Shown here: piece after piece, positions 3,441 through 61,495 of the stretch | Layout of the letters: every line of letters begins with the position of its first letter | Position numbering within the stretch: position 1 is the first letter of the stretch | DNA from: Klebsiella pneumoniae | GTDB lineage: Bacteria; Pseudomonadota; Gammaproteobacteria; Pseudomonadales; UBA5518 | Length of the DNA: 64,000 bases | NCBI GenBank assembly: GCA_945862145.1 | Contig: CAMAXE010000007.1 | Span: 62,001-126,000, forward strand | Direction of reading: 5' to 3' | The notes under the pieces: model-generated | The model's database searches: none | What the model saw: only the letters and a program-made list of their open reading frames with translations | Told to the model about the DNA's origin: nothing | Program-made: the position numbers and the translations under genes

Positions 3441-5189
3441 TTAGCGAGGCGCCCGCTCCCCCGCCTCCATCCTCTGCAACTCCCACAACCGCCGGTACAA
3501 CCCACCGCGCGCGATCAGGGCATCGTGCGTGCCGCGTTCCTGCAGGCGGCCGCGGGCGAGCACCAGGATCTCGTCTGCCTCGCGCAGCGTGGACAGCCGG
3601 TGTGCGATGATCACCATCGAGACCTCGCCCTTCAGCTTGTGCAGCGCCTCCTGCAGCAGCGCCTCGGTGCCGCTGTCGATGCTCGCGGTGGCCTCGTCCA
3701 GCACCAGCACGGCAGGGTTTCGCAGCAGCGCGCGGGCGAGTATCACCTGCTGGCGCTGACCCGCAGACAGCGCGCTGCCGCGCTCGCCCACCGGCGTGTC
3801 CAACCCCTGCGGCAGACCCCGCACGAAGGGCGCAAGGCCCACGCGCTCCATCGCTGATTCGATGTCCTGCGCGCTCGCGCCAAAACCGAAATCGATATTC
3901 GACGCGAGGCTGCTGGCGAGCAGGAATGGATCCTGCGGCACATACGCCACCAGGCGATGGAAATCATCGTCGGCGATCTGCTCGAGCGGGACGCCTCCCA
4001 TGGTGAGCGTGCCGGTCTGCGCGGCGTGAAAGCGCAACAACAGCCCGGCGAGCGTGCTCTTGCCGCTGCCGGTCGGGCCCACCAGCGCTAGGAACTGCCC
4101 GGGTGGCAGATCAAAGCTGATGTCGTGCAGCACTTGCTCGCCGCCCTCGTAGGCAAAGCCGAGCCCACTCGCGCGGAGCCGTGTGTCTGCGGGCAGCGGG
4201 CCGGTGGCGCGCAGCTCGCGGGCGTCGCTGCGGTCGCAGAGCTCGAAGACGCGCGTGGCCGAGACCATGGCGTTCTGCAGCATGCTCAGCCGGTGCGTCA
4301 CGTCCACCACCGGCTCGCCGAAGCGCCCGAGGTAATTCACGAACACGTAGATCACGCCGATCTCCACGCCGCCGCCCAAGGCACGCGTGCCGAACCACAG
4401 CACCAGCGCCGCCATGCAGCACTGCAGCAGCACATCCACCATCGGCCGCAGCAGCAAGGCATCGAGCCTGAGCGAGGCCATACGCGCCGTGTAGTGCACG
4501 CGGCTCTGCGTCTCGAAGCGCTCCGCGAAGTGCGGCAACTGCCGCGTGAGCTGCACCACGCGGATGCCGCCGATGCTCTCGGAAAGATTGGCGTTGATCT
4601 GCGCGAGCGCTGCACGCACCGCACGGAAGCGCGGACCGCTGGCGCGCTGGTAGACCCACATCACGGTGAGCGCCAAGGGCAGGAACACCAGGCAGGGAAT
4701 GGCGAGTCGCCAGTCAAGCAGCAGCATGGCGATGGCCATGCCGATCACCCGCGCGCTATTGGCTACCAACACGCCCAGCACGTTCAGGTAAAAATCTTTT
4801 ACGGCCTCGGTGTCGTTGGTGAGACGCGACACCACCACGCCCACGGGTGTGCGGTCGAACCATGCCACCGGCAGGCGCAGTGCGGTGTGGAAGGCGTTGC
4901 GGCGGATCTCGGCGACGGCAGAGAGCGCGATGCGCGCCAGCACCACACCCTGCGCGTAACCCGCCGTGGCGCCGATGCCCTGCAACACAACATAAGCAAT
5001 TCCAAGCAGCAACAGGGGCTGCAGCGGGTAGTGGCCGGTTTGTACATGGGCATCCATGAACTGCCGGATGAGCAGCGGCGCGCCCAGTTCGGCGGCAGCC
5101 GATAGCAGCACCAATGTGACGGCCAGCGCGAAGCGTGGCCGGTCACGCATGGCGAGCCGCATCAGGCGCGGGAATGGATTGGCCGTCAT
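3441..5189 (-). CDS. ABC exporter, fused permease and ATPase (MdlB-like half)
   Basis: This is a 582-residue half-transporter with an N-terminal membrane domain (about residues 20-310) and a C-terminal nucleotide-binding domain. Motifs: Walker A GPTGSGKST (371-379), signature LSAGQ (474-478), Walker B VLVLDEA (494-500, with the catalytic Glu) and an H-loop in IIAHRLSTL. The signature departs from LSGGQ. Its start overlaps the stop of the preceding ABC gene by 4 bp, so the two are translationally coupled and should form a heterodimer like MdlA/MdlB (SmdA/SmdB). Such pumps export drugs or lipids across the inner membrane. The substrate here is unknown. Confidence 0.88.
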   Translation of the reverse strand: MTANPFPRLMRLAMRDRPRFALAVTLVLLSAAAELGAPLLIRQFMDAHVQTGHYPLQPLLLLGIAYVVLQGIGATAGYAQGVVLARIALSAVAEIRRNAFHTALRLPVAWFDRTPVGVVVSRLTNDTEAVKDFYLNVLGVLVANSARVIGMAIAMLLLDWRLAIPCLVFLPLALTVMWVYQRASGPRFRAVRAALAQINANLSESIGGIRVVQLTRQLPHFAERFETQSRVHYTARMASLRLDALLLRPMVDVLLQCCMAALVLWFGTRALGGGVEIGVIYVFVNYLGRFGEPVVDVTHRLSMLQNAMVSATRVFELCDRSDARELRATGPLPADTRLRASGLGFAYEGGEQVLHDISFDLPPGQFLALVGPTGSGKSTLAGLLLRFHAAQTGTLTMGGVPLEQIADDDFHRLVAYVPQDPFLLASSLASNIDFGFGASAQDIESAMERVGLAPFVRGLPQGLDTPVGERGSALSAGQRQQVILARALLRNPAVLVLDEATASIDSGTEALLQEALHKLKGEVSMVIIAHRLSTLREADEILVLARGRLQERGTHDALIARGGLYRRLWELQRMEAGERAPR

Positions 5190-6931
5190 GCCAGAGACTC
5201 CGCCGCGGCCGCCAGCTGCTGGTAACGCCAGGTCTCGGCGTACCAGCCACCCTGCGCGAGCAGCTCCGCGTGGGGGCCGCGCTCGCTCACGGCGCCATCG
5301 CGCAACACGAGGATCTCATCGGCACCCTGCACGGCAGAGAGCCGGTGGCTCACGATTACCCGCGACAGGTGCCGCGTGTGCATCTCGAGCGCCGCGAGGA
5401 TCGCGTGCTCGGTCTCGGCATCTACCGCCGAGAGCGAATCATCCAGCAACAGCAACCGGCAATCGGCGAGCAGCGCCCGCGCCAGGCACAGCCGCTGGCG
5501 TTGCCCGCCCGAGAGCGTGACGCCGCGCTCACCCACCTCGGTGTCCACGCCTGCCGCAAAGCCGGCCACGTCACGCTCGAGCGAGGCGAGCGCCATCATG
5601 CGAAGGATGTCCTGCTCGGAGGCATCGGGCCGGGCAAGCGCCAGGTTCTCGCGCAGGCTGGCGGAAAACAGCACCGACTCCTGCGGCACGCAGCCCACGG
5701 CCTCGCGCAGCGCATCGAGCCGGTACTCGCGGATATCGAAACGGCCGAGCCGCACCTTCACACCGGGCGCGTCGTAAAAACGCGCGAGCAGGGCAAGTAG
5801 CGTGGATTTGCCCGCTCCGGTGGGCCCGACGATGCCCAGCGTATGCCCGGGCTCCAGCGTGAACTGCACATCGCGCAGGGCGGGCTGGGTGCGGCCGGGG
5901 TAATCGAAGCGCGTGACACGCACCTGCAGACGGTAGTCCTCGACGCGCTCCAGCGTGCCGGTGTCGGGCACGGCCGAGGGCGTATCGAGGAACTCGCGGA
6001 TGCGCGCCCAGGCCGCCTTGCCCCGCTGCACCAGGTTGGCCATCCAGCCGAAGGCAAACATGGGCCACACCAGTTGCCCGAGGTACAGCGTGAAGCTGGT
6101 GAGCTGGCCCAGACTGAGACGCCCGGCATCGATCAGCCAGGCCCCGGCGCCCACGCTGATCAGGAAGGAGCCTCCCACGGTGAGGTAGATGATCGGATCG
6201 TAGCGGGCATCTATGAGCGCCACGCGCATGCTGGCGGCGTTAGCGGACTCCGAGGCCGCAGCGAAAACACTCTCCGTGTGCGCCTCGGCCCCCAATCCGC
6301 GCAGCGCCCGCAGCCCGCCAACGCTCTCCTGCGTCACGGCGTTCAAGGTGCTGAATGCCGCCTGCGAGGCATCAAAACGCGCGTGTAGCGCCACACCGAG
6401 GCTCCACATCGCCCGGCTCATCAGCGGCCAGGGAGCAAGCGCCAGCAGCGTGAGCGTGCCGCTCAGCGCAAACGCCATCATTCCCAGCACCAGGACGCCG
6501 GTCATGAGACCGTCGAAGATCGACAGCACCGCCTCGCCTGCCGTCATCTCCACGGCCTGCACATCGTTGGTGGCGCGGGCCATGAGATCCCCGGCGGGAA
6601 AAGCAGCCAGTGCCGCCGGCGAGAGTTGCAGCAAGTGGCGGTAAATGTCGCGGCGCAGCTCCAGGCTGAGCAAATAAGAGGCGCCGTAGAGCGTGCGGCG
6701 CCAGAAATAGCGGCAAACGTAGATCCCGCAGGCACAGCCCACGATACCCAGCGCATACCAGCGCAACCCCTCGGCATTGAGACTGCCGGCCACGATGCCG
6801 TCGACCACCCGCCCGATGATCAGCGGCGGGAGCAGACCGAGCACGGCAACGCCGGCCAGCAGAGAACCCGCCAGACAATAGCTTCGCCAGTGCACGCGGA
6901 AGAAACCGCGCAGCGTCCAGAAGATATCCAT
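5186..6931 (-). CDS. ABC exporter, fused permease and ATPase (MdlA-like half)
   Basis: This 581-residue half-transporter begins at the ATG at 6931 (MDIFWTLRGF), which puts the membrane domain at the expected distance. The upstream extension is Arg/Pro-rich and lies in the divergent promoter region, so it was rejected. Motifs: Walker A GPTGAGKST (369-377), signature LSGGQ (473-477), Walker B LLLLDDS (493-499). The catalytic Glu after Walker B is Asp, as in MdlA, so one composite ATP site is probably degenerate and the partner subunit supplies the active one. It is divergent from the ECF sigma gene. Confidence 0.88.
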   Translation of the reverse strand: MDIFWTLRGFFRVHWRSYCLAGSLLAGVAVLGLLPPLIIGRVVDGIVAGSLNAEGLRWYALGIVGCACGIYVCRYFWRRTLYGASYLLSLELRRDIYRHLLQLSPAALAAFPAGDLMARATNDVQAVEMTAGEAVLSIFDGLMTGVLVLGMMAFALSGTLTLLALAPWPLMSRAMWSLGVALHARFDASQAAFSTLNAVTQESVGGLRALRGLGAEAHTESVFAAASESANAASMRVALIDARYDPIIYLTVGGSFLISVGAGAWLIDAGRLSLGQLTSFTLYLGQLVWPMFAFGWMANLVQRGKAAWARIREFLDTPSAVPDTGTLERVEDYRLQVRVTRFDYPGRTQPALRDVQFTLEPGHTLGIVGPTGAGKSTLLALLARFYDAPGVKVRLGRFDIREYRLDALREAVGCVPQESVLFSASLRENLALARPDASEQDILRMMALASLERDVAGFAAGVDTEVGERGVTLSGGQRQRLCLARALLADCRLLLLDDSLSAVDAETEHAILAALEMHTRHLSRVIVSHRLSAVQGADEILVLRDGAVSERGPHAELLAQGGWYAETWRYQQLAAAAESLA

Positions 6932-6988
6932 GGGTGGGGATGATGACCGATCACCGCCTCCGCAGGCGCGGCAAAATTCCCCCGCGAA

Positions 6989-7012
6989 GGAATCGACCCG
7001 GAGGCCGCGTCC
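6989..7012 (+). promoter_or_regulatory. Possible ECF-type promoter upstream of the sigma factor gene
   Basis: GGAAT (6989-6993) and CGTCC (7008-7012) resemble the -35 GGAAC and -10 CGTC elements recognised by many ECF sigma factors. The spacing of 14 nt is slightly shorter than usual. The position, upstream of the sigma gene and in the divergent region shared with the ABC exporter, would fit autoregulation. This is a weak motif call. Confidence 0.3.
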
Positions 7013-7095
7013 TACGCTCGGGACATACGGTGCGGTCAATGACAACAGAAACTGCGAAGATGCCCTTCGCCTTGTGGCGGGGGTTGCCAGGAACG

Positions 7096-7659
7096 ATGTC
7101 CGGAAGCGTTGGCCAGGAGCGTGGCGAGCCCACGGACGAGGCGCTGATTGCAGCGATCTCGCGGGGGGAGCAGCGGGCGCTGGAGGCACTGGTACGCCGT
7201 CACGGCGGCTGGGCCGCGCGCTTCGCGGAACGTCTGACCGGCAACGCCGTACTGGCCGAGGAAGTGGTGCAGGCCGCCTTCCTCAAGGTCTGGCAGAAGT
7301 CTGAGGCCTGGGAGGGCCGATCGCGCTTCAGCACGTGGTTCTACCGGGTGCTCCACAATCTGGCCATAGACCAGGTGCGGGCGCGGCGCAGCGACCACGA
7401 GGAACTGGACGAATCATTAGCCGATCACCGGGACGGACCCGAACAGGTGGCCGCCCGCGACCAGCGCGATGCGCGTGTGCGCGCAGCGCTCGCGGCACTG
7501 CCAGAGCGGCAGCGGCTGGCGGTGGTGCTGAGCCACTACGAGGGCTGCTCACAAGCCGAAGCCGCAGCTATCCTCGGCATAGCTGAGGGCGCGCTCGAAT
7601 CGTTGCTTTCACGGGCGCGCGCTACGCTGCGCAGCGCCCTGTCCGATGAAAGGGGATAA
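7096..7659 (+). CDS. ECF-type RNA polymerase sigma factor
   Basis: With the ATG at 7096, preceded by AGGAA (7089-7093), the product is 187 residues, the normal size for an ECF sigma factor. Region 2 (from ALEALVRRHG to RFSTWFYRVLHNLAIDQVR) binds core polymerase and the -10 element. Region 4 (ALPERQRLAVVLSHYEG followed by the helix-turn-helix AAAILGIAEGALESLLSRA) binds the -35 element. An upstream ATG at 7039 would add 19 residues and remains possible. The next two genes encode a short single-pass protein and a periplasmic metal-sensor-like protein. This arrangement parallels CnrH/CnrY/CnrX and predicts release of the sigma factor on an envelope signal. Confidence 0.88.
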   Translation: MSGSVGQERGEPTDEALIAAISRGEQRALEALVRRHGGWAARFAERLTGNAVLAEEVVQAAFLKVWQKSEAWEGRSRFSTWFYRVLHNLAIDQVRARRSDHEELDESLADHRDGPEQVAARDQRDARVRAALAALPERQRLAVVLSHYEGCSQAEAAAILGIAEGALESLLSRARATLRSALSDERG

Positions 7660-41157: not shown

Positions 41158-42312
41158 TCACTTGCCTTTCTTGAAATTCGCGACGTCGATGGGCTGCAGC
41201 ATGTCGCCCACGTTGTTGCCCCATGCGTTGCGCTCGTAAACGATGACGGCGGCCAAATCGACCTCGCTCAGCTGTGCGCCGAAAGCCGCCATCGCCGTTC
41301 CCGCCTTGCCATTTACGATGATATCGATGTGACCTTCGATCGGCCCCATCGCAATCGCGCTGCCTTTGAGTGCAGGGAATGCACCCGGGATGCCTTCGCC
41401 GTTTGGCTGGTGGCAGGCAGCACAAACCTTCTCATAAACCCCTTTACCGCGCTCCATGGATTGATCCATGGTGAAGGATTGGGACATCAGTTCGCGCTCC
41501 TTGACAGCCTCTTGCTTGCGGCCGGCCAGCCAAGTGTTGAACTCCGCCTCGGGGAGTACACGAACCACGATCGGCATGAAGCCGTGTTCCTTACCGCACA
41601 ACTCGGTGCATTGGCCGCGGTAGATGCCGGGCTCGGGTACCGTCGCCCAAGATTCGTTGATGAAACCGGGAATTCCGTCCTTCTTGACCGCGAAATCAGG
41701 CACCCACCACGAATGGATAACGTCAGAGGCCGTCACGAGGAAACGGACTTTCTTGCCGGCAGGGATAACCAGTGGCTCGTCGACGTCGAGGAGGTAGTTC
41801 TCACCCTTGGGCGCGAGGTTGTCTATCTCGTCGCGCGGTGTGCGCAGGGACGAGAAAAACTCTACCCCTTCTTTGGGGTAAGAATATTTCCACTTCCACT
41901 GGTAGCCGGTGATTTGCACATCGAGCGCGGCATCCGTGGTGTCGTACATGTCGGTGAGGGTGCGCGTAGCGGGCACCGCCAAAACCATGAGGATCAGGAA
42001 GGGCACGAATGTCCAGGCAATTTCGAGTGTGGTGCTCTCGTGAAATTTCGCGGCAACGGCGCCGCGGGACTTCCGGTGCGCGAAGATCGAATAAAACATG
42101 ACGCCGAAGACGACGACGGCGATGGCGACGCACACCCACAGCGAGAACATGTGGAGGTCATAGACCCGGTGGCTCACGTCGGTGGCACCAACGCGCATGT
42201 TCAAGTCTGAGCGCTCGACCTGCTCGGCTAGGGCGAGGGCTGGCTGCAATACAAGGGCAGCCGTGGAGAAGACACCTGCCATAAGGAGGCGCCGATGTTG
42301 AGCTAGCAGCAT
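41158..42312 (-). CDS. ctaC: Cytochrome c oxidase subunit II with C-terminal cytochrome c domain
   Basis: The 384-residue protein has a signal-like N-terminus, two membrane helices (about 55-80 and 98-115), and a cupredoxin domain with CuA ligands His200, Cys235, Glu237, Cys239, His243 and Met246 (CTELCGKEHGFM). A fused class I haem c domain with CAACH (297-301) follows. It accepts electrons from a c-type carrier. The start ATG 42312 is preceded by GGAG; an in-frame Met ten residues later is an alternative. It is first gene of the oxidase operon. Confidence 0.95.
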   Translation of the reverse strand: MLLAQHRRLLMAGVFSTAALVLQPALALAEQVERSDLNMRVGATDVSHRVYDLHMFSLWVCVAIAVVVFGVMFYSIFAHRKSRGAVAAKFHESTTLEIAWTFVPFLILMVLAVPATRTLTDMYDTTDAALDVQITGYQWKWKYSYPKEGVEFFSSLRTPRDEIDNLAPKGENYLLDVDEPLVIPAGKKVRFLVTASDVIHSWWVPDFAVKKDGIPGFINESWATVPEPGIYRGQCTELCGKEHGFMPIVVRVLPEAEFNTWLAGRKQEAVKERELMSQSFTMDQSMERGKGVYEKVCAACHQPNGEGIPGAFPALKGSAIAMGPIEGHIDIIVNGKAGTAMAAFGAQLSEVDLAAVIVYERNAWGNNVGDMLQPIDVANFKKGK

Positions 42313-42479
42313 GACTCCAAAACTCCGGTCTGGTTGACACCGCTTCACGCGGCGGGGTGCACAACACTTGCTGCTGGCGCAACGAGGCGCGCGAAGTATA
42401 GCAACCCTTTCCACAGTGCGCGACCTCATCAACTGCGCTATTCCATACGCGACGTTTACTCGCGCTGCGAGGCTCCGGA

Positions 42480-42713
42480 TCAGTCGCTGCGCGGGTCGAT
42501 GATACGGATGATCCCGGTGGTGGTGGCGGGCTCGCCAAGCCCGCGGTTGCTCGGATCGTTGGCATCGCCCGCGGCACGGTCCTGTGCGTCCGTAAAACCG
42601 CAGTCAACGCATTCGCAGATCCGCTGACCGTCGCGCTCGGCGAGCGCAAGCGTGTCGAGGGCCTCGCAGCGCGGGCACCGTGCGCCGGCGATAAATCTTC
42701 GTAATGTGCTCAT
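42480..42713 (-). CDS. YheV-like zinc-ribbon protein
   Basis: The 77-residue frame (MSTLRRFIAGARCPRCEALD at the start) carries the Cys pairs CPRC (13-16) and CECVDC (33-38), a zinc-ribbon pattern typical of the YheV family. The conserved RRFIAGARCP opening supports the call. The ATG at 42711-42713 overlaps the stop of the upstream aroE-GNAT gene by 4 bp, so they are translationally coupled. The C-terminal part (from about 40) is variable. Function in the family is not established. Confidence 0.8.
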   Translation of the reverse strand: MSTLRRFIAGARCPRCEALDTLALAERDGQRICECVDCGFTDAQDRAAGDANDPSNRGLGEPATTTGIIRIIDPRSD

Positions 42714-44008
42714 GCAGCAGGCTCCGGGGCATGCAGATCCAGCTCCCAATAAACGACGCCCTCGAGCGGGTTGTCGTTGTAGGGCGCGCAGGGTCGGAAT
42801 CCGAGATCGCGGTAGAGGGTGTTCGCCTCGCGAAGCCGGTCCAGGGTGTCGAGGCGCATACGGGCGTAGCCGGCGCTGCGTGCGGCGGCGATGATGGCCC
42901 GCGCAAGCGAACGCCCCAGCCCGGCACCACGCCAGGCAGCCGGCACGTAGAGTCGCTTCATTTCGCAGATACCGGCGGCAAGCGGGCGCAGAGCTACGCA
43001 GCCGGGCGCCTCGCGGCCTGCCTGCGCCAGCAGGAGCTCCCCGGCGGGAGGCCCATAAGCCCCCGGGAGCGCAGCGAGCTCCTGCTCGAAACCCTGAAAA
43101 CAGAGATCGACGCCAAGCCAGGTCTGGTACTCGCGAAAAAGGTGCGCCGCAACCTGCATATCGATCGCCCCGCGCGCGGGGCGGATGCTGTAGCCGTGGC
43201 GGAGCCCAGCGATCACCGCCGCGGTCTCTGGCCGTATGCCGCGCCACAGGTAAAAAGATTCCGCGGCCTGCTCGACCAGCATGCCAAGGCCATCGGCCAG
43301 CCTGACCGCACCGCGCGCGGCAGCGGCCCGCAGGAAAGGGGTAGGCTCATTGCCGTAAATCATGTCGTAACAGGCGGTGGCGGCGGTAATCAGGCCATCG
43401 GGCAAGGCAGGGGTCTCACCGGCGAGGCCGGCGCTGCTGGCATTGATAACGAGATCGAAGGATGCACCCTCCAGAACCTCAGGTCCTCCACCCTCAACGC
43501 GACCCGCGCCCCCAAAGAGGCGGGCAAGCTCCGTGGCCCGGGCTGCCGTGCGGTTCATCACGACGAGCTTTGCTGGTCGCGCCGCAAGCAAGGGTCCAAG
43601 CACCCCCCGTGATGCGCCCCCGGCGCCAATCAACAGAACCCGTGCATCCTGCAAGTCCCAGCCGAGGTTGTCGCGCAGGTCGCGCACCAACCCGGCACCG
43701 TCGGTGTTGTCACCCAGCACATCGCCATCCGGCTGCAGTGCCAGCGTATTCACCGCGCCAGCCGCAGCGGCACGCGGGGAGAGACGGCTGGCCAGTGCGT
43801 GCGCCTCGAGCTTGAACGGGACCGTGACGTTCAACCCCTTGCCACCGCTGCTGAAGAAGTCGGCGACCGCAGCATCAAAACCATTAAGGGACACCAGCAT
43901 GCGCCGGTACTCGAGATCCTGAGACGTCTGCCGCGCGAATGCAGCATGGATGAAGGGGGAGCGCGAATGCGCCACCGGGTTGCCGATCACGGCGTAACGG
44001 TCTGTCAT
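42710..44008 (-). CDS. aroE: Shikimate dehydrogenase fused to a GNAT acetyltransferase
   Basis: The 432-residue protein has two complete-looking domains in one uninterrupted frame. Residues 1 to about 270 are AroE: VIGNPVAHSRSP, catalytic Lys66 in NVTVPFK, Asp103 in DNTDG, NADPH-binding GAGGAS (about 125-130) and C-terminal GLGMLVEQAA. Residues about 275-432 are a GNAT domain with EMKRLYVPAAWRGAGLGRSL (acetyl-CoA motif A) and NTLYRDLGFR (motif B). AroE reduces 3-dehydroshikimate in aromatic biosynthesis. Normal AroE is about 270-280 residues. The GNAT substrate is unknown. Downstream is yheV and upstream hemF (7 bp gap). Confidence 0.9.
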   Translation of the reverse strand: MTDRYAVIGNPVAHSRSPFIHAAFARQTSQDLEYRRMLVSLNGFDAAVADFFSSGGKGLNVTVPFKLEAHALASRLSPRAAAAGAVNTLALQPDGDVLGDNTDGAGLVRDLRDNLGWDLQDARVLLIGAGGASRGVLGPLLAARPAKLVVMNRTAARATELARLFGGAGRVEGGGPEVLEGASFDLVINASSAGLAGETPALPDGLITAATACYDMIYGNEPTPFLRAAAARGAVRLADGLGMLVEQAAESFYLWRGIRPETAAVIAGLRHGYSIRPARGAIDMQVAAHLFREYQTWLGVDLCFQGFEQELAALPGAYGPPAGELLLAQAGREAPGCVALRPLAAGICEMKRLYVPAAWRGAGLGRSLARAIIAAARSAGYARMRLDTLDRLREANTLYRDLGFRPCAPYNDNPLEGVVYWELDLHAPEPAA

Positions 44009-44015
44009 GGTCGGC

Positions 44016-45540
<1,525 letters not shown>

Positions 45541-45544
<4 letters not shown>

Positions 45545-55399: not shown

Positions 55400-57856
<2,457 letters not shown>

Positions 57857-58957
57857 TCATACCACGGTGCCGCCCGACTGCCCGTGTTCCACGTGGAACA
57901 GCCTTAGCTCATGCGGCGGGACCAAGGGCCAACAGTCCTCCAGATCGGACCGCTCCACGCAACTCACCATCACCTGACAGTTCAGGCTACTCAACAACGA
58001 ACACAGGGCCTGTCGGTGCTTGCGATCAAGCTCTGCCGGCAAGTCGTCTACCAGAAACACGCAAGCCCTGCCGCGGGCGCCGGTAAAAATCCTCGCCTGA
58101 GCCACTTTCATGGCACAGACCACCAATTTCTGCTGCCCCCTGGAAAGGACTTCGTCCGCGCTCTGCCCATGAAGACGAAGCCGGATATCAGCACGGTGAG
58201 GGCCACTTCCCGTAAAGCCTCTCTCACGATCCCGATCATGCTGATCGCGCAGAACCTCCAGCAGGCCGCGCTCCTTGTCCCAACCGCGCTGATAGGACAG
58301 TTCGATTCCCTCGATATTCGCCAACTCAGCGAGCGTGGCCGTGAACTGCGGGGAAAAAGCCTCGAAATACTGCCTGCGGAAGCCATCAAGACTCTCGGCA
58401 CTGGCCGAAAGCCGCGTATCCCACGCCTCCAGCTGGTCCGGCGCGATTCTAGCATGGCGCATCAACGCGTTGCGCTGACGCAAAACCCGCTGCACATCGA
58501 GCCACACTCCGTGGAACTCTTGTTCCACGTGGAACACGCCCCAGTCGAGAAACTGCCGACGGCTCTTGGGCCCCCCCTCGAGCAAGTCAAAGGTATCCGA
58601 ATTGATGAGCTGAACTGGAAGGCAGCGGGCTAACTCAGCCGTGTTCTGAACCGTCCTCCCCTGAATACGCCCCTCAAACTCGCCGTCCCGCCGTCTGGCA
58701 ACGCCGATAGACAGCGGGGACGCGTGCTGCGCGTCGATCACCAAGGCGTGAACGACGCAACCACTAGCCTCATGATTGATAACGGGCTCCAGCCTGCTGC
58801 TCCTGAACGAACGCCCCGAGCCCAGCAGGTATACCGCCTCGAGAATGCTCGTCTTCCCACTTCCATTAGCGCCTGCAAACACATTCACGCGTGCCAGATC
58901 GAGCTCTGCGTCGTGAATGTTCCGAAGCTCTTGGATCCTGAGGCGCCGAAGCGACAT
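57857..58957 (-). CDS. recF: DNA replication and repair protein RecF
   Basis: The 366-residue SMC-like ATPase has Walker A GANGSGKTS (29-37), signature-like LSRGQQKLVV and Walker B FLVDDLPAELD. It acts with RecO and RecR to load RecA at gaps. It lies between dnaN (12 bp) and gyrB (24 bp) in the conserved order. Confidence 0.95.
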   Translation of the reverse strand: MSLRRLRIQELRNIHDAELDLARVNVFAGANGSGKTSILEAVYLLGSGRSFRSSRLEPVINHEASGCVVHALVIDAQHASPLSIGVARRRDGEFEGRIQGRTVQNTAELARCLPVQLINSDTFDLLEGGPKSRRQFLDWGVFHVEQEFHGVWLDVQRVLRQRNALMRHARIAPDQLEAWDTRLSASAESLDGFRRQYFEAFSPQFTATLAELANIEGIELSYQRGWDKERGLLEVLRDQHDRDRERGFTGSGPHRADIRLRLHGQSADEVLSRGQQKLVVCAMKVAQARIFTGARGRACVFLVDDLPAELDRKHRQALCSLLSSLNCQVMVSCVERSDLEDCWPLVPPHELRLFHVEHGQSGGTVV

Positions 58958-58969
58958 GCCTGATGGTGT

Positions 58970-60076
58970 TTAGAGGCGCATTGGCATAACGACGTAGAGC
59001 GCGCCGTCGGCCGCAGGATCCTCCATCAGGACACTGCTACTGCCATCCGAAAACTGGATCCGTACAGACTCTCCGGTAAGCACACCCAGAACATCGATCA
59101 AATAACTCACGTTGAAGCCAATCTCCACGCGATCACCGTCGTAATCAACGGCGATGCTCTCTTCGGCCTCTTCTTGCTCCTGATTACTCGCGAGAATCTG
59201 GATCCCGCCCTGATCAATAACCAGGCGCACGCCGCGAAACTTCTCGTTCGACAAGATCGAGGCCCGGCTAAGCGAGTCTCTCAGCTCAGAGCGCGCTGCC
59301 ACGAGGCTGCGCCCCGCCGCCTTGGGCAACACCTTGGTGTAATCCGGAAACTTCCCGTCGACGAGTTTGGAACTGAAAGCATAATCAGGAGTAACCACCC
59401 GGAACAGCGAGCCACCCAGAGATACCCGGGCCTCGGCGTCCGGATCCTGCAGCAGGCGCTGCAGTTCCAGAACACCCTTCCGGGGCAGAATGGCGTGCAT
59501 ATCGGCTTTCACACCGGGCAAATCGGCCTCCAAGGTTGAAAGCGCCAGACGGTGGCCGTCTGTCGCGACCGCACGAAGGCGTTTCGGGGTCAACTCGAAC
59601 AGCGTCCCGTTCAGGTAGTAGCGAACATCCTGCTGAGCCATTGAAAAAGCGGTTCGATCAATAAGACGCTTGAGCTGGCCTTGGGGGACGGCGAACTCGA
59701 CCATCGCTGGCGAATGCTCGATGCTCGGGAAGTCGCTGGCGGGCAGGGTCGACAGCGCAAAGCGACTGCGGCCACAACGCAGATTAAGCCGCTGATCATC
59801 AAGCGAAAACTCAAGGACGCCGGCTTCCGGAAGCGACTTGCAGATATCGGCAAGCTTGCGCGCCGGGACCGTGACCTCGCCGCTCTCTCCGGGCTGACTC
59901 AGACGGATGTGTCCGACAAGCTCGACCTCGAGGTCCGTGCCTGTCAAAGACAAACAATCACCATCGAGCGACAACAGCACGTTCGACAGTACCGGCAGCG
60001 TTTGCCGCCGCTCCACGACCCCCGCAACAAGGTTCAGGGGCTTTAACAGGGCGTCGCGCGAGATCGAAAATTTCAT
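58970..60076 (-). CDS. dnaN: DNA polymerase III beta sliding clamp
   Basis: The 368-residue protein is the normal clamp length (366), starting MKFSISRDALLKPLNLVAGV and ending GALYVVMPMRL, the conserved C-terminus that forms part of the hydrophobic clamp-binding pocket. It tethers replicative polymerase. It lies 39 bp downstream of dnaA. Confidence 0.97.
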   Translation of the reverse strand: MKFSISRDALLKPLNLVAGVVERRQTLPVLSNVLLSLDGDCLSLTGTDLEVELVGHIRLSQPGESGEVTVPARKLADICKSLPEAGVLEFSLDDQRLNLRCGRSRFALSTLPASDFPSIEHSPAMVEFAVPQGQLKRLIDRTAFSMAQQDVRYYLNGTLFELTPKRLRAVATDGHRLALSTLEADLPGVKADMHAILPRKGVLELQRLLQDPDAEARVSLGGSLFRVVTPDYAFSSKLVDGKFPDYTKVLPKAAGRSLVAARSELRDSLSRASILSNEKFRGVRLVIDQGGIQILASNQEQEEAEESIAVDYDGDRVEIGFNVSYLIDVLGVLTGESVRIQFSDGSSSVLMEDPAADGALYVVMPMRL

Positions 60077-60115
60077 GCAAGCAGTCTCCGTCAGGGCTAT
60101 TCAAAAGCCGGCCGC

Positions 60116-61495
60116 TCAGGCCGACAACAACCGGTAAAGATTTTTGTAGTCCTCGTGCATATCCGGGTCAGAATCACGCAACTCTTTGATTTTTCTGCAG
60201 GCATGCAGCACGGTCGTATGGTCACGCCCACCAAAACTATCGCCGATTTCCGGCAAGCTGTGGTTGGTCAGCTCCTTGGACAAAGCCATTGCCAACTGGC
60301 GCGGGCGCGCCACCGACCGACTACGCCGTGCCGACAGAAGATCCGACAGTTTTATCTTGTAATACTCCGCCACGGTGCGTTGGATGTTATCCAGGCTGAT
60401 CTGCCGATCCTGCAAGGCCAGCAGATCCTTGAGCGACTCCCTCACCAGCTCGAGGTCGATCCGCCGATGCGTGAAATGCGCACTGGCGATCACGCGCTTC
60501 AAGGCGCCCTCGAGCTCTCTCACATTGGATTTTATGCGCTGCGCAACAAAAAAGGCGGCCTCTGCCGGAAGATCAACCCCGGCCTGCTCGGCTTTCTTCA
60601 ACAGGATCGCGACCCTGGTCTCCAACTCGGGCGGCTCTACGGCCACCGTCAGCCCCCACCCGAACCGCGACTTGAGGCGCTCCTCAAGGCCGTCGATCTC
60701 TTTGGGGTAGCGATCGCAGGTCAGGATCATCTGTTGCCCACCCTCGAGGAGGGCGTTGAAGGTGTGGAAGAACTCTTCCTGGGATCGCTCCTTGCCGGCA
60801 AAAAACTGGATGTCGTCGATCAACAGCGCATCAACCGATCGGTAATACCGTTTGAAATCATTGATCTGGTTTAACTGCAGGGCCTTGACCATGTCCCCGA
60901 CGAAACGCTCAGAGTGCAAGTAGACAACGCGGGCATTGGGGTCGCCGCCCAGCAAGGCATTGCCCACGGCATGCATGAGGTGCGTCTTGCCCAAGCCAAC
61001 ACCGCCGTATATGAACAGAGGGTTGTAAGCGCCGCCCGGGTTCTGCGCTACCTGCTGTGCGGCGGCTCTGGCGAGCTGGTTGCTCTTGCCTTCGACAAAA
61101 TTCTGAAAGGTGTAGCCCTCGATCAGATAGTGGTGCTGCCTCACGGGCGCCTCTGGCTCAGCACGCCGGGGAGCTGGCACCGCATCAAGCCCAGCCACAC
61201 GAACAAAGGGCGAGCTCACAGCGGGTTTCACAAGCGGAGCGCGGAGAGGCGCATCGCGCCCTGCCGCGTCCAACAGGACGCTCGCTATACGCCCGCCCGA
61301 TATATCGTTCACGATCTGGCGGATACGCTCGATATATTTGTCATGCACCCAATCCTTCACGAAGCGATTCGGGGCGATAAGTTGCAATGCACCCGCGGAC
61401 TCGGTGGCTCGCAGGGGTCTTATCCAGGTGTTGAACTGCTGGGGCGGCATTTCGTCACGCAGAAAGCTACTGCAGCGTTGCCAAGTGACATCCAT
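60116..61495 (-). CDS. dnaA: Chromosomal replication initiator DnaA
   Basis: The 459-residue protein has domain I (1-80), a Pro/Ala-rich linker, AAA+ domain with Walker A GGVGLGKT (164-171), Walker B LLIDDIQF and sensor motifs, and domain IV with the DnaA-box-binding [12 protein letters not shown]. It binds DnaA boxes in the adjacent origin. The ATG 61495 lies about 110 bp from the nearest box on the right. Confidence 0.97.

Follow-up and report, generated by a model that had tools for sequence, protein, structure and literature searches.

Biosynthetic enzymes carrying an acetyltransferase tail have a described precedent in ArgH(A) of marine gammaproteobacteria, in which, according to the available part of the original report, argininosuccinate lyase is followed by a C-terminal GNAT domain, a short N-acetylglutamate synthase (NAGS) (PMC1382215). 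Shikimate dehydrogenase (AroE) is also known from fusion proteins, and the accessible portion of the relevant literature describes AroD-AroE and AroE-AroK fusions in which AroE is joined to pathway partners (PMC11237513). Among PDB molecule names, AROM and chorismate mutase-AroE are found as well. A protein combining AroE with a GNAT domain is apparently undescribed: no publication on this pairing was recognised in a literature search extending mostly over papers outside subscription, in agreement with an initial annotation of the locus, which knew of no described function for it.

Such a fusion is encoded in the 64,000-nucleotide stretch of DNA analyzed here, hereafter the window. This AroE-GNAT fusion is genuine and conserved and, within the samples searched, is restricted to the genus from which the DNA originates (the source genus).

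An Uninterrupted AroE-GNAT Gene

The fusion gene is located on the reverse strand (42710-44008), its limits having been set by open reading frame analysis, family searches and comparison with relatives. It encompasses 432 codons from the ATG at 44008, which is the earliest start codon past the preceding stop, and contains no internal stop. The initial annotation had described a single frame in which a complete AroE with intact Lys66 and Asp103 runs into a GNAT domain with an acetyl-CoA motif A, and each element of this description holds, both families being recovered above their cut-offs in a 432-residue protein.

The AroE half (residues 1-271; 43196-44008, reverse strand) is complete on the basis of NF001310, TIGR00507 and PF08501. 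Its membership rests on the cut-offs of equivalog models, with scores of 375.3 bits against NF001310 (cut-off 221, residues 2-272) and 252.1 bits against TIGR00507 (cut-off 200.2, residues 5-266). K66 within NVTVPFK and D103 within DNTDG are in place, together with the SRSP (15-18), GAGGA (128-132) and NRT (152-154) motifs; we take K66 and D103 to be the catalytic lysine and aspartate, SRSP the substrate motif and GAGGA the nucleotide motif. All these residues and motifs are invariant in six species of the source genus, except T154 which is replaced by Ser in one of them (G001).

The GNAT half (residues 274 to about 427; 42728-43189, reverse strand) is likewise complete, as delimited by Pfam, the predicted structure and PDB matches. 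Over about residues 321-405, it scores 39.3 against PF13508 (cut-off 27) and 36.6 against PF00583 (cut-off 20.7), and PF13673 is also above its cut-off. Motif A, for which we assume the pattern R/Q-x-x-G-x-G/A, is present as R360-G-A-G-L-G365. Assignment to the GNAT superfamily is thus founded on Pfam cut-offs, motif A and the fold seen in the predicted model and its PDB matches; among the 25 of 30 families listed, no NCBIfam GNAT model exceeded its cut-off for the window protein. Conserved residues of this half include E310, E349, R352, Y399 and Y410. In the fusion of G001 (L009), an Arg replaces the middle Gly of motif A (RGARLG). An Arg at this position also occurs in some stand-alone relatives, for example L042 (RGTRLG).

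A yheV-like zinc ribbon gene (42480-42713, reverse strand; TIGR02443, 52.5 bits for a cut-off of 49.45; DUF2387) starts within the end of the fusion gene. The 4-base overlap (ATGA) noticed by the initial annotation was recovered in all six source-genus members. On the other side, hemF (44016-44933, reverse strand; NF003727, 467.7 bits) lies on the same strand 7 bases upstream of the fusion and is preceded by tsaC (44930-45544, reverse strand; NF007919, 188.5 bits for a cut-off of 175). At E 0.01, PADLOC returned no defence match for the fusion or yheV, and a defence system was discarded on this basis.

Other features of the window were recorded in passing. An ORF resembling cytochrome oxidase subunit II (41158-42432) adjoins yheV, and its terminal part appears to be a cytochrome c domain (CAACH, read by eye). 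The genes gyrB, recF, dnaN and dnaA stand in a row at 55400-61495, dnaA being about 16 kb from the fusion, which is perhaps near the chromosomal origin. Adjacent ABC exporter half-transporters occupy 3441-7189, their best matches being the SmdB and SmdA models, at scores below cut-off.

Conservation Within the Source Genus

The uninterrupted fusion is present in 6/6 source-genus genomes, which are all the genomes returned for the family and represent the sole genus sampled there; the other five proteins are 65-92% identical to that of the window over nearly their full length. Since the same unbroken frame occurs in six genomes, it is not a sequencing error, and the missed stop or frameshift that the initial annotation had named as grounds for abandoning the fusion can practically be dismissed as an artefact merging two genes. 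Nor do close relatives carry the two halves as separate genes: PF08501 detects one AroE per genome in all six, no separate AroE was found in any of them, and a search at E 1e-12 revealed no second GNAT copy. The fused enzyme consequently appears to be the sole shikimate dehydrogenase of these organisms, and the same PF08501 count gave no second AroE that would free the fused copy for other work.

The two halves lose identity to the window fusion in step across the five genomes. For the AroE half, identity amounts to 91.9% in G005, 73.9% in G003, 70.2% in G004, 65.6% in G001 and 64.1% in G002; the corresponding values for the GNAT half are 92.5, 71.5, 71.4, 68.4 and 68.6%, the last figure covering part of the domain. 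In the closest pair, dN/dS is 0.13 for AroE and 0.08 for GNAT. Over six pairs, the ranges are 0.13-0.26 and 0.08-0.32, respectively, and in the G001-G002 pair the ratio for GNAT (0.315) exceeds that for AroE (0.261); as four of these pairs have a dS above 1, the ratios are rough. As judged from these substitution patterns, both halves are under purifying selection.

A Junction Almost Devoid of Linker

The junction between the two halves (residues 272-273; 43190-43195, reverse strand) was placed using the six-species alignment and the predicted structure. The model assigns residues 260-271 to the final helix of the AroE half and residues 274-277 to the first GNAT strand. As the helix ends at 271 and the strand begins at 274, the linker, whose conservation and structure the initial annotation had wished to see checked, would be reduced to about two residues, with the reservation that the helix lies in a region of middling confidence (pLDDT 59, residues 261-270). 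Its length is fixed and its sequence variable, residues 269-283 being free of indels in the six species.

The GNAT half is predicted with high confidence, with a pLDDT of at least 93 in 15 of the 16 ten-residue blocks of 271-430 and of 84 in the remaining block, 301-310, which bears the family signature described below. The AroE half of the model has a pLDDT mostly below 50, its alignment having comprised two fusions and an AroE segment from a viral contig (L154) that MAFFT misaligned; only the GNAT half is usable, and the relative orientation of the domains cannot be read from the model. The top fold match of the predicted GNAT half in the PDB is 3d8p (Z 20.1, rmsd 2.0, 152 aligned), and the NAGS structure 2r8v is also among the matches (Z 17.1). 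An internal start yielding a free GNAT was considered and rejected, a Met near the junction being present in just two of the six species (the window and G005) and in none of the other four.

A Widespread Family of Stand-Alone GNAT Proteins

A scan of genome contigs, seeded by six peptide patterns, retrieved 80 loci encoding relatives of the GNAT half, one of which (L035) is a 92% identical fusion. The others originate from Kangiellaceae, Rokubacteria, Acidobacteriota, Thiomonas, Comamonadaceae and further groups, the better matches being 50-64% identical to the window GNAT and the weakest about 35%. An AroE part is absent from 55/55 translated relatives. Many relatives across several phyla have the signature DLCFQGFEQEL..LPG.Y in common; as CFQGFEQE was one of the seeds, conservation of this signature partly reflects the selection of matches. 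In genome-search matches picked without any pattern, a motif of the CFQGFEQE type is present in most, in a looser form. Proteins bearing the signature are widespread, from L036-L103 of the scan to the genome-search matches L121-L134, and no established name was found for their family. Compared with GNAT models with no cut-offs applied, the relatives give weak matches scattered over many of them. By sequence and tree, the fused GNAT is assigned to the DLCFQGFEQEL..LPG.Y family.

Among 37 relatives, hand-chosen from the 79 scan loci other than L035, 46 sites are conserved at 90% or more, and 38 of these, among them E310, E349, R352, Y399, Y410 and P414, are retained by every one of the six fusions. 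Sites within the presumed acceptor region (F304, Q305, F307, E308, E310, Y410 and P414) are kept in 6/6 fusions, as they are in all or all but one of the 37 relatives. Other presumed acceptor positions are relaxed in the fusions, with Q309 replaced in 5/6, G306 in 3/6, D301 in 2/6 and C303 in 1/6, a pattern which may reflect an altered acceptor.

Outside the source genus, aroE was found at 0/95 GNAT loci obtained from the scan and from the order and class searches; these loci measure about 2-10 kb each, some stopping at contig ends, and as they were drawn from two collections the same species may count twice. The same holds for the five GNAT loci checked from a 390-genome order search, three of them new (0/5). 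In a Pfam analysis of 80 neighbouring proteins from 23 loci (part of 93 prepared, L096 and some other loci having been left out), ABC-F type ATPases (5), 4HBT thioesterases (4) and CbbQ-type proteins (3) were encountered. No common theme was seen in the 25 of 130 neighbour families listed, a proportion at which single aromatic-pathway neighbours could be hidden. In Kangiellaceae-like loci, the ABC-F neighbours (ABC_tran_Xtn) seem to lie upstream of the GNAT gene, judged by gene length.

Distribution and Origin of the Fusion

When the whole fusion was used as query, a match was obtained in 188/194 genomes of an order sample at E 1e-10 and in 353/398 genomes of a phylum sample at 1e-20. The GNAT half is much rarer in comparison, with matches in 9/194 genomes of the order at 1e-12 and in 12/390 of a larger, overlapping order sample at 1e-20, six in each case belonging to the source genus, and in 13/369 genomes of the class at 1e-15, the window genome included. 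Among the matches listed for the order, class and phylum samples, no stop-free match spans both halves outside the source genus, so that the search for other AroE-GNAT architectures proposed by the initial annotation revealed no further fusion; since the order and phylum results for the whole fusion consist of the best-scoring matches listed, a fusion of AroE with some unrelated GNAT could have escaped notice. One match reaching residue 375 (G019, L139) was rejected as a fusion, a stop occurring six codons beyond residue 272.

Outside the source genus, aroE genes of the order and class end shortly after the AroE domain. Of 41 loci (24 order loci from the whole-fusion search and 17 fetched, most of them for their long open frames), 39 terminate 1-11 codons past the aligned part, and in the other two masked bases prevent a judgement. 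Ten order loci, hand-chosen from the 24, were scanned for the gene just downstream of aroE: eight encode hexapeptide proteins convergent to aroE, one (L033) gave no match, and in the last (L029) yheV directly follows aroE and a MatE protein lies beyond it.

In a phylogenetic analysis of the GNAT domains, rows with at least about 120 aligned residues were retained (85/89 loci). In the resulting 85-row tree, a long-branch Sphingomonadales record (L091) falls inside the fusion clade beside G001 with weak support (96/35), and the fusions appear as a single group in no bootstrap tree. After removal of eight long-branch or distant rows, L091 among them, the fusion GNATs of the 77-row tree form one clade (support 99/94). 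A single event of capture and fusion, in an ancestor predating the diversification of the genus, is the simplest account, and horizontal acquisition of the GNAT gene is inferred.

Proposed Explanation and Alternatives

The explanation we favour, and hold to be reasonably probable, is that a GNAT gene was captured beside aroE and fused to it, giving a two-enzyme protein in which the GNAT keeps the acceptor of its relatives. The ancestor of the genus would have acquired a GNAT gene of the widespread family directly downstream of aroE, where it closed the tsaC-hemF-aroE group. The gene would then have been joined end to end with aroE, with about two residues separating the final AroE helix from the initial GNAT strand. 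Reduction of 3-dehydroshikimate would fall to the AroE part, no other shikimate dehydrogenase having been found in the cell, and the GNAT part would move an acetyl group from acetyl-CoA to an acceptor common to its stand-alone relatives, probably a small molecule. The fusion would set a 1:1 dose of AroE and GNAT. Many GNATs dimerize and, if this one does, AroE would be dimerized too. From their sequence, both fused domains look intact, with their key sites kept in one polypeptide. As relatives exist in several phyla and aroE is found at none of their 95 loci, the GNAT chemistry need not depend on AroE.

An alternative in which the GNAT works on aromatic-pathway metabolism or is regulated together with it, its active site being kept in register with that of AroE by the fixed-length junction, appears doubtful, if worth considering. 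A coupling of the fused GNAT to aromatic synthesis is possible, and the retention of the fusion by every source-genus genome could reflect a benefit of physical coupling. The GNAT would then acetylate either a compound of the aromatic pathway or a reactive by-product, such as an aryl amine downstream of chorismate, attachment to AroE placing it where the acceptor arises, as in ArgH(A). To our knowledge, however, none of the steps of the shikimate pathway is an acetylation, and this proposal is further weakened by the absence of aroE from the 95 loci and by the lack of a common theme in the commonest neighbour families (25 of 130 listed). It is consistent with the presence of the fusion in every source-genus genome at constant junction length, with the pathway-linked precedent of ArgH(A), as set out in the available part of its report (PMC1382215), and with the pathway partners found in the AroE fusions described in the accessible portion of PMC11237513; on balance we judge it unlikely. 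A GNAT sensing acetyl-CoA or acetylating AroE, and in this way linking aromatic flux to acetyl-CoA supply, would agree with the short junction of constant length and the permanent tether to the only AroE found. However, the presumed acceptor sites are kept in relatives whose loci show no aroE, which points to an old substrate rather than to AroE, and a literature search gave no paper on lysine acetylation of AroE or shikimate dehydrogenase; such regulation thus seems quite improbable. Collectively, these data uphold the fusion, catalytic residues and yheV overlap of the initial annotation but not its proposed functions: coupling to aromatic precursor synthesis, detoxification of a side product and acetylation of AroE all found no direct support, the GNAT relatives being spread over several phyla and aroE being found at none of the 95 loci.

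A last possibility is that the GNAT half is a short NAGS, similar to that of ArgH(A), which moved onto aroE. The fold match to 2r8v and the weak matches of 31/40 family rows to the amino-acid N-acetyltransferase model PRK07922 would be in line with this origin, but other GNAT models match the family rows as widely, the window protein reaches 17.6 bits for a PRK07922 cut-off of 180, and a classical argA is above cut-off in five of the six source-genus genomes, the sixth (G003) having partial argA matches below cut-off. A short NAGS was accordingly set aside as very improbable.

Comparison With Known Systems

The fusion attaches a housekeeping enzyme to a GNAT family of wide distribution and offers a handle on the acceptor of this family. 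It is a natural example of an out-of-pathway fusion, limited to a single genus within the samples searched, and its near-linkerless joining of two enzymes is a test case for metabolic consequences. Coupling, if shown, would be an unexpected link of acetyl-CoA to aromatic synthesis.

Members of the stand-alone DLCFQGFEQEL..LPG.Y family (e.g., L036-L096) have no AroE part, whereas the source genus has the same domain on AroE. By sequence, the nearest solved structures are YsnE (1yx0, 31.6 bits) and a Klebsiella protein (3lod, 34.9 bits), both distant from the fused GNAT, the alignments being limited to the part beyond about residue 328. YsnE appears in the literature in connection with the synthesis of indole-3-acetic acid in Bacillus, and 3lod is named a putative acyl-CoA N-acyltransferase. 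AroDE, AroE-AroK and AROM resemble the present protein in placing AroE within a multidomain protein; their partners are enzymes of aromatic synthesis, whereas here the partner is an acetyltransferase.

The GNAT of ArgH(A), as far as the available part of its report describes it, serves its own pathway and complements argA, whereas we know of no acetylation in the shikimate pathway. The AroE-GNAT protein also departs from ArgH(A) in that its GNAT lies below the NAGS cut-off and its partner is AroE, not ArgH. ArgH(A), in which an arginine enzyme bears the GNAT tail, is nevertheless the nearest precedent: within what the consulted portion of the report presents, both proteins consist of a biosynthetic enzyme with a C-terminal GNAT, occur in one group only and have stand-alone GNAT relatives elsewhere (PMC1382215).
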